A stretch of 64,000 nucleotides of DNA from positions 372,001-436,000 of the forward strand of contig NZ_JABMLE010000001.1 of assembly GCF_013205025.1 (NCBI RefSeq), written 5' to 3'. Shown one piece after another: positions 40,999 to 44,603 of the stretch. The first letter of the stretch is position 1. Each line of letters starts with the position of its first letter. Source of the DNA: Rathayibacter sp. VKM Ac-2857 (GTDB lineage Bacteria; Actinomycetota; Actinomycetes; Actinomycetales; Microbacteriaceae). The notes under the pieces were generated by a model, which saw nothing but the letters and a program-made list of their open reading frames with translations, did no database searches and had not been told where the DNA came from. Both the position numbers and the translations under genes were made by a program.

Positions 40999-42369
40999 CT
41001 ACGCGTCGAGCGAGAAGTCCGCGCCGAGCAGCTCGAGCTTGGTGAGGAAGTTCTCGTAGCCGCGGCTGATGATGCCGACGTTCGAGACGTGCGACGTGCC
41101 CTCGGCCGAGAGCGCCGCGATCAGGTGCGAGAAGCCGCCGCGCAGGTCCGGCACGACGATGTCGGCGCCGTGCAGCTTCGACGGGCCGGAGATGACCGCG
41201 GAGTGCATGAAGTTGCGCTGACCGAAGCGGCAGGCCTGGCCGCCGAGGCACTCGCGGTGGATCTGGATGGTCGCGCCCATCTCGACCAGCGCGTCGACGA
41301 AGCCGAAGCGCTGCTCGTAGACGGTCTCGTGCACGATCGACACGCCCTTCGCCTTGGTCAGCGCCACGACGAGCGGCTGCTGCCAGTCGGTCATGAAGCC
41401 GGGGTGCACGTCGGTCTCGATGATGACCGGCTTCAGCTCGCCACCGGGGTGGTAGAAGCGGATGCCGTCCTCGGCGATCTCGAACGCGCCGCCGACCTTG
41501 CGGAAGACGTTGAGGAAGGTCGTCATCTCCTGCTGGCGGGCGCCGCCGACGAAGATGTCGCCGTCGGTCGCGAGCGCCGCGGCGGCCCAGGAGGCGGCCT
41601 CGTTGCGGTCGAAGAGCGCGCGGTGGGTGTACCCCTCGAGGCGGTCGACACCCTCGATGCGGATCACGCGGTCGGTGTCGACCGAGATGATGGCGCCCAT
41701 CTTCTGCAGGATGTTGATGAGATCCATGATCTCCGGCTCGATCGCCGCACCCGACAGCTCGGTGATGCCCGAGGCGCGGACCGCGGTGAGCAGCACCTGC
41801 TCGGTCGCTCCGACGCTCGGGTAGGGCAGCGACACCTTCGCGCCGTGCAGGCCCTCGGGCGCCGACATCCGGATGCCGGAGGGCAGCTTCTCGACGATGG
41901 CGCCGAAGTTGCGGAGCACCTCGAGGTGGTAGTCGATCGGGCGGTCGCCGATGCGGCAGCCGCCGAGGTCGGGGATGAACGCCTCGCCGAGGCGGTGCAG
42001 CAGCGGGCCGCAGAACAGGATCGGGATGCGGCTGGAGCCGGCGTGCGCGTCGATGTCGGCGAAGTGCGCCGACTCGACGGCGGACGGGTCGAGGATCAGC
42101 TCGCCCACCTCCGGGCCCTGCTTCACCTTCACGCCGTGCACCTCGAGGAGGCCCTTCACGACGCGGACGTCGCTGATGTCGGGCACGTCGCGCAGCGTCG
42201 AGGCGGTCTCGCCGAGGAGCGCCGCCACCATCGCCTTGGTGACGAGGTTCTTCGCCCCCTTGAGCTCGATCCGGCCCTTCAGCGGACGACCACCGTGGAT
42301 CGTGAGCCGCTCGGTCGTCATCCCCACCCGTGCTCCCGCCGCCTTGGCATCCTGAAGAAGTGTGTTCAC
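40999..42369 (-). CDS. murA: UDP-N-acetylglucosamine 1-carboxyvinyltransferase
   Basis: A 456-residue enolpyruvyl transferase, the first committed step of peptidoglycan synthesis. Motifs: LKGRIELKGAKNLVTKAMVAALL, with Lys and Asn of the active site, and the catalytic Cys in DLGGCRIGDRPIDYHLEVLRNFGA. Because Cys rather than Asp is present, the fosfomycin target residue is retained. The GTG start lies 1 bp after the leuD stop, so murA is read with leuCD. Confidence 0.93.
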   Translation of the reverse strand: MNTLLQDAKAAGARVGMTTERLTIHGGRPLKGRIELKGAKNLVTKAMVAALLGETASTLRDVPDISDVRVVKGLLEVHGVKVKQGPEVGELILDPSAVESAHFADIDAHAGSSRIPILFCGPLLHRLGEAFIPDLGGCRIGDRPIDYHLEVLRNFGAIVEKLPSGIRMSAPEGLHGAKVSLPYPSVGATEQVLLTAVRASGITELSGAAIEPEIMDLINILQKMGAIISVDTDRVIRIEGVDRLEGYTHRALFDRNEAASWAAAALATDGDIFVGGARQQEMTTFLNVFRKVGGAFEIAEDGIRFYHPGGELKPVIIETDVHPGFMTDWQQPLVVALTKAKGVSIVHETVYEQRFGFVDALVEMGATIQIHRECLGGQACRFGQRNFMHSAVISGPSKLHGADIVVPDLRGGFSHLIAALSAEGTSHVSNVGIISRGYENFLTKLELLGADFSLDA

Positions 42370-42370
42370 G

Positions 42371-42967
42371 CTATTTCACCGGCAATGTCTTGGGCCGCCA
42401 GCTCGCGCGACGGGTCTCGAATTCGGAAATGAGCGCTTCGTCGCGCAGGGTCAGGCCGATGTCGTCCAGCCCTTCGATCAGGCGCCAACGAGTGTAGTCG
42501 TCGACCTCGAAGGGGAAGGTCTCGCCACCGGCGGTGACCGTACGACCAACCAGATCGACGGTCGCTTCTATTCCCGGCGTGCCGTCGATCAGCTCCCAGA
42601 GCCGCTTGACGTCGCTCTCGGCGAGGGCCGCGGCGAGCAGCCCCTGCTTGCCGGAGTTGCCGCGGAAGATGTCGCCGAAGCGCGAGGAGAGCACGACGCG
42701 GAAGCCGAAGTCGCGCAGCGCCCAGACAGCGTGCTCGCGGCTGGAGCCGGTGCCGAAGTCGGGGCCCGCGACGAGGATCTGCGCGCCCTGGAAGGCCGGC
42801 TGGTTCAGCACGAACTCCGGGTCCTGGCGCCAGCCGTGGAAGAGCGCGTCCTCGAAGCCGGTCTTGGTGACCCGCTTGAGGAACACCGCCGGGATGATCT
42901 GGTCGGTGTCGACGTTGCTGCGCTTCAGCGGCGCGGCGATGCCGGTGACGGTCTCGAACTTCTCCAT
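42371..42967 (-). CDS. leuD: 3-isopropylmalate dehydratase small subunit
   Basis: A 198-residue swivel-domain subunit: [32 protein letters not shown], then [41 protein letters not shown]. It forms the LeuCD isomerase of leucine synthesis with the preceding gene, 2 bp away. Confidence 0.96.
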
Positions 42968-42969
42968 GA

Positions 42970-44472
42970 TCAGGCCTCCACCAGCTCGCGGACGGGCTCC
43001 AGATCCGACGGACTGGAGAGGGTGCCGCGGACGGCGGTCGCGGCGGCCACGAGCGGCGACACCAGGTGCGTGCGGCCGCCCTTGCCCTGCCGGCCCTCGA
43101 AGTTGCGGTTCGAGGTGGAGGCGCAGCGCTCCCCCGGGGCCAGCTGGTCCGGGTTCATGCCGAGGCACATCGAGCAGCCGGCGAAGCGCCACTCGGCGCC
43201 GAACGCGGTGATCACCTTGTCCAGGCCCTCGGCCTCGGCCTCGATGCGCACGCGGGCGGAGCCGGGGACGACCATCACCCGGACGCCGGGCGCCTTGGTG
43301 CGGCCCGCGATGATCGAGGCGAAGGCGCGGAGGTCCTCGATGCGCGAGTTGGTGCAGGAGCCCATGAAGACCGCGTCGACCGGGATCTCCTTCATCGGCG
43401 TGCCGGCCTCGAGGTCCATGTACTCCAGAGCGCGGCGGGCGTTCGAGCGCTCGTTCGGGTCCTCGATCGTGTCGGGATCCGGCACGGCCTGCGAGAGCGA
43501 GACGCCCTGGCCGGGGTTGGTGCCCCAGGTGACGAACGGCTCGAGGGCGTCGGCGTCGAGGACGACCTCGGCGTCGAAGACGGCGCCCTCGTCGCTCGGG
43601 AGCTTCCGCCAGTAGGCGACCGCGTCGTCCCAGTCCTGGCCCTCGGGAGCGTGCGGACGGCCCTTGAGGTAGGCGAAGGTCGTCTCGTCCGGTGCGACCA
43701 TGCCGGCGCGGGCACCGGCCTCGATCGACATGTTGCAGATCGTCATCCGGCCCTCCATCGAGAGCGCGCGGATCGCCGAGCCGCGGTACTCGAGCACGTA
43801 GCCCTGACCGCCGCCGGTGCCGATCTTCGCGATGACCGCGAGGATGATGTCCTTCGCGGTGACGCCCTCGCGCAGCTCGCCCTCGACCGTGATCGCCATG
43901 GTCTTGAACGGTTTGAGCGGCAGGGTCTGGGTCGCCATCACGTGCTCGACCTCGCTGGTGCCGATGCCGAACGCCATCGCGCCGAACGCGCCGTGCGTCG
44001 AGGTGTGCGAGTCTCCGCAGACCACGGTGATGCCGGGCATCGTCAGCCCGAGCTGCGGGCCGACGACGTGCACGATGCCCTGCTCGATGTCGCCGAGCGA
44101 GTGCAGGCGGACGCCGAACTCGGCGGCGTTGCGCCGCAGGGTCTCGATCTGGGTGCGGCTGGTGAGGTCGGCGATCGGCTTGTCGATGCCGACGGTCGGG
44201 GTGTTGTGGTCCTCGGTCGCGATCGTGAGATCGGGCCGGCGGACCGGGCGACCGGCCTGGCGGAGGCCGTCGAAGGCCTGCGGGCTGGTCACCTCGTGCA
44301 CGAGGTGCAGGTCGATGTAGATCAGGTCGGGGGTGCCGTCCTCGCCCTTGGCGACGAGGTGGTCGTCCCAGACCTTCTCGGCCAGGGTGCGCGGGCGCTC
44401 GACGGCCGGGGGCACGGTGGCCGAGGGCACAGCGGCCGACGGCACAGCGGTATCGGGGGAACTGTCGTTCAT
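42970..44472 (-). CDS. leuC: 3-isopropylmalate dehydratase large subunit
   Basis: A 500-residue aconitase-family subunit. Fe-S ligands sit in [31 protein letters not shown] and [22 protein letters not shown] opens the domain. The start used is ATG 44472 ([17 protein letters not shown]), giving an Ala/Pro/Val-rich N-terminal leader of about 25 residues not usual in the family; GAAGAGA is 9 nt upstream. It converts 2- to 3-isopropylmalate. Preceded by a Leu-rich leader peptide and hairpin. Confidence 0.95.
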
Positions 44473-44484
44473 GGCGGGATTCTC

Positions 44485-44495
44485 TTCCTCAGGAA
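44485..44495 (-). promoter_or_regulatory. Small hairpin near the leuC ribosome-binding site
   Basis: TTCC-TGA-GGAA is a self-complementary stretch whose right half contributes to the purine-rich Shine-Dalgarno region of leuC. If formed, it could hide part of that site. It is very short and may have no effect. Confidence 0.25.
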
Positions 44496-44518
44496 TGGTG
44501 GTCAGCCCACGAGAGACA

Positions 44519-44559
44519 CCGCGACGAGAGAGGCCTGTCAGATCGAGGTCTCGTCGCGG
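44519..44559 (-). promoter_or_regulatory. Attenuator-like hairpin in the leuCD leader
   Basis: On the minus strand, CCGCGACGAGA (44559-44549) and TCTCGTCGCGG (44529-44519) form a perfect 11-bp stem with a 19-nt loop. The left arm starts 2 nt after the four consecutive Leu codons of the leader peptide, so a ribosome stalled there would cover it. No U-tract follows, so it is not a classic intrinsic terminator; Rho-dependent or translational control would be needed. Confidence 0.6.
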
Positions 44560-44588
44560 CGGAGAAGGAGGAGCCGGCCGAACAGCAT
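44538..44588 (-). CDS. Leucine-rich leader peptide of leuCD
   Basis: A 16-residue peptide, [16 protein letters not shown], with the codons CTC CTC CTT CTC in a row (44573-44562) and another CTG at codon 2. It is 66 bp upstream of leuC on the same strand. No Shine-Dalgarno site precedes it. Instead an extended -10 box ends 6 nt upstream, which puts the transcription start at the A of its ATG, so it is probably translated as a leaderless message. Its likely job is to sense charged tRNA-Leu and control leuCD-murA. Confidence 0.65.
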
Positions 44589-44594
44589 GGACCG

Positions 44595-44603
44595 AGGATA
44601 GCA
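44595..44603 (-). promoter_or_regulatory. Extended -10 promoter of the leu leader
   Basis: On the minus strand the bases read TGCTATCCT: a TGn extension directly before a TATCCT -10 hexamer. No good -35 box is seen 17 bp further up, which fits an extended -10 promoter. The predicted start is at or near 44588. Confidence 0.5.

Follow-up and report, generated by a model that had tools for sequence, protein, structure and literature searches.

A conserved leader upstream of leuC in Microbacteriaceae, probably a leucine-responsive control element

On the minus strand of the window, which is the whole stretch of 64,000 nucleotides of Rathayibacter DNA that was analysed, the leuC and leuD genes are preceded by a short open reading frame (ORF) with four consecutive leucine codons and by a perfect hairpin (Table 1). 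The locus raises the question of whether this ORF senses leucine and, if so, which step of leuC expression it would control. The sequence and coordinates of the -10 element, the ATG, the Leu codons and the hairpin given in the original prediction are correct to the base. The leader reads ATG CTG TTC GGC CGG CTC CTC CTT CTC CGC CGC GAC GAG ACC TCG ATC TGA; six bases separate TGCTATCCT from its ATG (44588), and the left arm of the hairpin, CCGCGACGAGA, begins two bases past the Leu run. Taken as a single sequence, the leader folds with a modest advantage over its shuffles (z -2.07, with 6 of 200 equalling it). Rfam release 15, applied to the whole window at gathering score, returned tRNA only and no family for the leader, and at E up to 5 the leader gave two matches, both far under their gathering scores.

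Table 1. Features of the leuC leader and the genes behind it (positions in the window)
Feature	Positions	Strand	Role or reading	Basis
Extended -10, TGCTATCCT	44595..44603	-	Predicted transcription start at or adjoining the leader start codon	Sequence
Leader ORF, 16 codons	44538..44588	-		Sequence; conserved upstream of leuC
Leu codon run CTC CTC CTT CTC	44562..44573	-	Presumed sensor and predicted anti-Shine-Dalgarno	Sequence, predicted pairing, codon bias
5' arm of perfect 11-bp hairpin, CCGCGACGAGA	44549..44559	-		Sequence; stem covariation
3' arm of perfect 11-bp hairpin, TCTCGTCGCGG	44519..44529	-		Sequence; stem covariation
Candidate pseudoknot loop strand, CAG(G)CC	44532..44537	-		Significant over 114 elements, but not when the family's leuC leaders are taken by themselves
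Candidate pseudoknot 3' strand, GGCTG	44503..44507	-		Same helix and permutation tests as the loop strand
leuC Shine-Dalgarno region, GAGGAAGAGA	44481..44490	-	Predicted to pair with the Leu run	Sequence
leuC, 3-isopropylmalate dehydratase large subunit	42970..44472	-	Presumed controlled gene	NCBIfam TIGR00170/NF004016
leuD, small subunit	42371..42967	-	Start 2 nt past the leuC stop codon	NCBIfam
murA	40999..42321	-	Passenger gene downstream of leuD	NCBIfam

The leuC gene is present in 116 of the 120 genomes of the family, which we infer to be Microbacteriaceae; 61 upstream fragments were compared, namely that of the window and those of 60 of the 115 other leuC-bearing genomes, those most similar in leuC, with 55 left out. 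Conservation of the leader upstream of leuC far exceeds chance expectation. ORFs of 6-45 codons containing a leucine or branched-chain run occur in 48 of the 61 fragments, window included; the reverse complements give 3 of 61, and 20 mononucleotide shuffles give 4.15 of 61 on average. A covariance model was built from 44 elements (43 leuC leaders and one other). With E values no worse than 1.4e-9, it matches 49 of the 61 regions, of which 43 trained the model and six are independent of the training. The element is absent, by this model, from the other 12 regions, among them one with a degenerate remnant (L011, E 0.29). Among 80 named leuC loci, 21 carry the element at E 1e-9 or better, all of them inside the 30 loci whose genus names place them in Microbacteriaceae (Microbacterium, Leifsonia, Agromyces, Agreia, Cryobacterium, Rathayibacter, Leucobacter, Glaciibacter, Terrimesophilobacter and one unclassified). 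The leader thus withstands the search for peptide and stem in relatives that had been proposed as its check, both in the family (49/61) and in the named Microbacteriaceae loci (21/30). The remaining matches among the 80 named loci have E 0.05 or worse, none lying directly before leuC in sense orientation, and the 59 named loci that lack a model match have no Leu-run ORF within 350 nt upstream. By the covariance model, the leuC loci of Curtobacterium, Frigoribacterium, Salinibacterium, Rhodoluna and Agrococcus are devoid of the element, as are all 50 named loci beyond Microbacteriaceae (E 1e-9); the model was trained on the family, so that absence beyond the family weighs less than presence inside it.

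A second copy of the element, 75% identical to the leuC copy, lies before leuA (assigned by NCBIfam) in the same genome, and at least one copy is found by the covariance model in 118 of the 120 family genomes. The 59 best-scoring matching loci comprise 53 before leuA and six before leuC; among 26 further matching loci, 23 lie before leuA and three do not. Both kinds of copy are found by one covariance model and have in common a hairpin directly after the Leu run. The family-trained model matches at least 65 of 396 genomes of the phylum, and a broader model matches 78 of 89 genomes of the order.

The leuC leader is an element of the LEU or LeuL1 kind, known at leuA, at a new gene, leuC. Seliverstov et al. 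2005 (PMC1262725) described the LEU element upstream of leuA in Actinobacteria as a leader ORF with a Leu run, a pseudoknot or alternative hairpin, and a base stem formed by the Leu codons with the Shine-Dalgarno sequence; they summarised mutations of the S. coelicolor leuA leader that do not behave as in classical attenuation, left the mechanism open and preferred a bound protein. The leader ORF with its Leu run and, in predicted folds, the base stem recur in the window, whereas the published copy stands at leuA and the window copy at leuC, with a sister copy at leuA; the whole words leuC and leuB have 0 occurrences in the main text of that paper. The LeuL1 peptide of S. lividans TK24, MRFGLLLLSCRGEGL, is encoded before leuA by a transcript described as leaderless by RNA-seq and as having no typical terminator (PMC8079986). 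It shares with the window leader the run of four Leu and the lack of a typical terminator, and it is reported to be leaderless, as the window leader is predicted to be, but LeuL1 lies upstream of leuA and the window leader upstream of leuC. Two loci from genomes of the same class (L119 and L123) encode exactly the LeuL1 peptide, and in C. glutamicum a presumed leuA leader with four Leu codons has been described (PMC4046766). No report of the element at leuC was found in the full-text literature, covered by titles and abstract openings, with subscription papers mostly outside.

In 18 genomes with both copies, selected from the fetched loci, the between-genome likeness is 0.871 for leuA elements and 0.783 for leuC elements. 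Pairs made of a leuC and a leuA element reach 0.801 between genomes and 0.824 within the same genome, a value that none of 5000 re-pairings attains. These figures fit a copying of the leuA element to leuC in Microbacteriaceae, in that presumed direction, with some within-genome exchange or shared composition.

The start of the leader, its codons and its folding were analysed on 102 elements, i.e. 49 from leuC, 32 from leuA in the family and 21 from leuA outside it, both leuA groups comprising best-scoring matches only; one (L054) was dropped for want of a usable ORF, leaving 101. Of the in-frame starts, the one closest to 12 nt before the element was taken as the leader start codon, blind to the -10. 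A TAnnnT hexamer begins 12-13 nt upstream of this codon in 93 of the 101 elements (leuC 47/48, family leuA 32/32, outside leuA 14/21), while all other offsets from 6 to 44 nt give ten occurrences in total. A Shine-Dalgarno-like motif is found before the leader in 7 of 101 elements and before the structural gene in 87 of 101. From the conserved -10 spacing, the leader transcripts are predicted to be leaderless and to start at the leader start codon, which favours the leaderless ORF originally proposed and agrees with the LeuL1 report in PMC8079986. A leaderless sensor peptide, which had been regarded as unusual, is not so in actinobacteria (PMC8079986, and the title of a reference in PMC13236596). 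The discussion of PMC13236596 mentions, in the context of translation attenuation of cysteine genes, the polycysteine leaderless sORFs of mycobacteria (Canestrari et al. 2020); these resemble the window leader, which is predicted to be leaderless and presumed to sense an amino acid, a different one in the mycobacterial case.

Codon usage in the run is strongly shifted. Its 357 codons comprise CTT 185, CTC 118, CTG 51 and TTG 3, with no CTA or TTA; the 2002 Leu codons of the downstream genes, a background made mostly of leuA genes as most leuC loci ended just inside the gene, are CTG 1288, CTC 624, TTG 56, CTT 29 and CTA 5. CTT is the last Leu codon in 83 of 101 elements. Rarity alone does not explain this bias, since other rare codons are hardly used; it is explained by complementarity to AAGGAG. 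The sensor codons therefore seem to double as an anti-Shine-Dalgarno sequence.

Folding predictions, made with the pseudoknot left out, are available for 99 of the 101 elements (46 leuC, 32 family leuA, 21 outside leuA). The predicted mean pairing probability between the Shine-Dalgarno sequence and the run is 0.51, 0.64 and 0.40 in the three groups, compared with 0.03 to 0.05 in dinucleotide shuffles (leuC 0.03); in the window the core AGGA pairs with the run at 0.94, and the mean of 12 shuffles is 0.06. A ribosome footprint placed on the first Leu codon raises the predicted unpaired fraction of the Shine-Dalgarno sequence from 0.23 to 0.45 for leuC, from 0.18 to 0.52 for family leuA and from 0.22 to 0.38 for outside leuA, and in shuffles from 0.35 to 0.37, 0.33 to 0.36 and 0.33 to 0.35, respectively. 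With the footprint at the stop codon the fractions are 0.24, 0.28 and 0.26. For the window leader, the predicted values are 0.03 when free, 0.38 with the ribosome on the first Leu codon and 0.03 at the stop. Against such a switch, 18 of the 46 leuC leaders fall short of a pairing probability of 0.3, accessibility drops by more than 0.1 in some elements when the footprint covers the second-last Leu codon (5/46 leuC, 5/32 family leuA, 2/21 outside leuA), and only 27/46, 23/32 and 11/21 elements beat all 12 of their shuffles. Taken together, the three tests, on start, codons and folding, point to leuC translation as the regulated step.

The leuC leader is therefore likely to be a LEU element of the LeuL1 type that acts as a leucine-responsive translational attenuator. 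Transcription would start at the leader start codon, as the conserved -10 suggests, and a ribosome would translate the leader. When leucine is plentiful, this ribosome would pass the Leu codons, terminate and depart; the hairpin would form, and the pyrimidine-rich run would pair with the purine-rich Shine-Dalgarno sequence of leuC, so that leuC and the closely following leuD would be translated little. Under a shortage of charged Leu-tRNA, the ribosome would stall on the run and cover it, and the Shine-Dalgarno sequence would be freed. In this scheme the Leu codons would serve as the sensor and also as the strand that switches. Pairing and relief were predicted by computation, with shuffles as controls; stalling, induction and the leaderless start are inferred. 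The reading lends support to the leucine-sensing leader originally assigned to leuC and leuD, and, unlike PMC1262725 with its bound protein, the present data speak for direct translational attenuation. The non-classical Leu-codon mutants of leuA reported there are what a dual-use run might give, because changes in these codons would remove the sensor and the switch strand together. The leader is conserved and probably a leucine-responsive control element.

The attenuator of the enterobacterial leu operon senses charged tRNA through a run of Leu codons; it is based on a terminator and has a different codon choice, in both of which it departs from the window leader. A comparable transcription attenuation, where the leader ribosome would choose between terminator and antiterminator in a classical or Rho-dependent way, is unlikely at leuC. 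The search for terminators gave nothing on the minus strand, its single terminator-like site falling on the plus strand, and no U-tract follows the stable hairpin, which so lacks the mark of an intrinsic terminator on which a classical transcription attenuator relies; moreover, the complementarity between run and Shine-Dalgarno sequence would be superfluous under a terminator model. The lack of a U-tract had been noted correctly, and it ceases to be a puzzle if the target is leuC translation initiation, with the Leu run pairing with the Shine-Dalgarno sequence. Actinobacterial ilvB and leuS leaders that use, or are predicted to use, terminators (PMC1262725, PMC13236596, PMC8079986) speak for transcription attenuation, and untranslated leuC mRNA could still invite Rho, but S. 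lividans LeuL1 is likewise reported without a typical terminator (PMC8079986).

The hairpin itself was examined on a wider alignment of 57 sequences. Six of the 11 stem pairs are changed on both sides, 97.8% of the cells are paired and 63 cells are changed on both sides, values reached by none of 500 shuffles; the compensatory changes that had been sought are thus present. Three of the 11 pairs never vary, and in a further two the variation is confined to one side. Within 44519-44561 of the window, eight of ten stem pairs are identical across 44 leaders, which, with the three invariant pairs, goes beyond base-pairing needs. At columns 23/55, a compensated change from A-U to G-C (G-C in 21 of 57) turns a GAC codon into GGC, so that pairing outranks the residue. 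Arrest by a specific peptide was judged unlikely, given this change and the variation of leader residues 2-5 among elements.

A pseudoknot between the hairpin loop and the 3' flank is a candidate part of the structure. The hairpin finder missed six of the 101 elements, so the tests used 95, and 114 after 19 of 21 further elements were added. In the permutation test of helix length, none of 2000 permutations reached the observed value over the 114 elements, nor over the 37 outside or paralogous ones; permutations within the family, where the motif hardly varies, did so in 198 of 2000 cases for leuC leaders and 577 of 2000 for leuA leaders. Both the Watson-Crick helix and the permutation tests are significant only when sequences from outside the family are included. 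The loop/flank duplex energy of family leuC elements is -9.45, almost the same as with swapped or shuffled partners (-9.09 each); that of leuA elements outside the family is -15.83, clearly different from the -12.30 and -12.10 of swapped and shuffled partners.

The excess of conservation in the stem, i.e. its invariant and one-sided pairs, is what a protein or another trans factor binding the structured element would explain, with the leader ORF secondary, and the non-classical mutations summarised in PMC1262725, where this explanation is preferred, agree with it. It is nonetheless decidedly unlikely: the start codon, the -10 spacing, the in-frame Leu run and the stop are all conserved, and five related loci keep the structure with Val/Ile/Leu runs before another gene, which an amino-acid sensor fits better. 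That the ORF is incidental to a 5'-structured leuC mRNA with no leucine control is hardly credible, as the codon bias, the conserved Leu run and the companion element at leuA outweigh the 12 of 61 family leuC upstream regions that lack the element.

For this known kind of element, the mechanism proposed here is better supported than any found on record. Codon bias, -10 spacing, stem covariation and the shuffle-controlled Shine-Dalgarno switch converge on a testable translational mechanism, for which the leuC copies provide a second set of sequences, and the known range of the element widens from a single gene to a small leucine regulon. On a wider reading we are evenly divided: the LEU element may be a translational sensor that can be moved and recoded, its sensing codons being themselves the anti-Shine-Dalgarno; it may have been copied from leuA to leuC in Microbacteriaceae, which would place two pathway steps under one leucine signal, and elsewhere in the order a Val/Ile/Leu copy may control a conserved protein, about 26 residues long, encoded beside leuB. 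On this reading the switch strand must be pyrimidine-rich, which would limit sensing to amino acids whose codons are of that kind.

The five LEU-like elements whose run mixes branched-chain codons lie in genomes of the same order (L259; L260, the place of L127; L263; L264; L268, the place of L139) and encode the peptides MTQRVVILIRRGEFR, MARQLVILSSRGEFR, MQRQVLLIASRGGVR, MQRQVGLLIASRGEVR and MRHALILRCRGGA. The gene that follows is a conserved ORF, some 20-28 codons long, that encodes MSEEAQKARQALQESMDLREQGHSDD or a related peptide. A search of 149 genomes of the order detects it in 11 at E up to 0.05, eight of these below 1e-4; it has no Pfam match. In 7 of 10 loci inspected, this tiny ORF is followed by a leuB-like gene, profile-confirmed at L127 and L139; in 5 of the 10 it lacks such a leader. 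At L145 a weak LEU-like leader (MSWQKLLVTRRSGV, a 35-bit match) stands before the gene of a protein some 140 residues long; this protein resembles neither LeuA nor LeuC, and Pfam gives no match to it above the curated cut-off. Third copies are present in six family genomes (L167-L172), before a second leuA paralogue, which so has a LEU element of its own, and also in G021, G023 and G078, which were left out of the inspected loci. This paralogue is 54-58% identical to LeuA of the window genome and is a 2-isopropylmalate synthase by profile at L167; its elements have a GACCGGC-like loop, as outside the family. The paralogue and its element may have come together from elsewhere.

The inclusion of murA in the presumed controlled transcript, also regarded as unusual in the original prediction, reflects a shared gene order: murA follows leuD in all 30 named Microbacteriaceae loci, including the nine that lack the element, with a spacing of 9 to 194 nt, and lies within about 400 nt of leuD in 25 of the 50 other named loci. 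A special role for murA was rejected, as the gene order is unchanged without the element. In the window, the murA ATG lies 49 nt after leuD, and an alternative in-frame GTG is found at 42369, directly behind leuD. Co-transcription of murA, with some response to leucine, is possible, and nothing suggests selection for it. The divergence of the neighbouring genes is uneven in Rathayibacter iranicus (L188), whose murA is 97.7% identical to that of the window, while leuD is 82% and leuC 86% identical.
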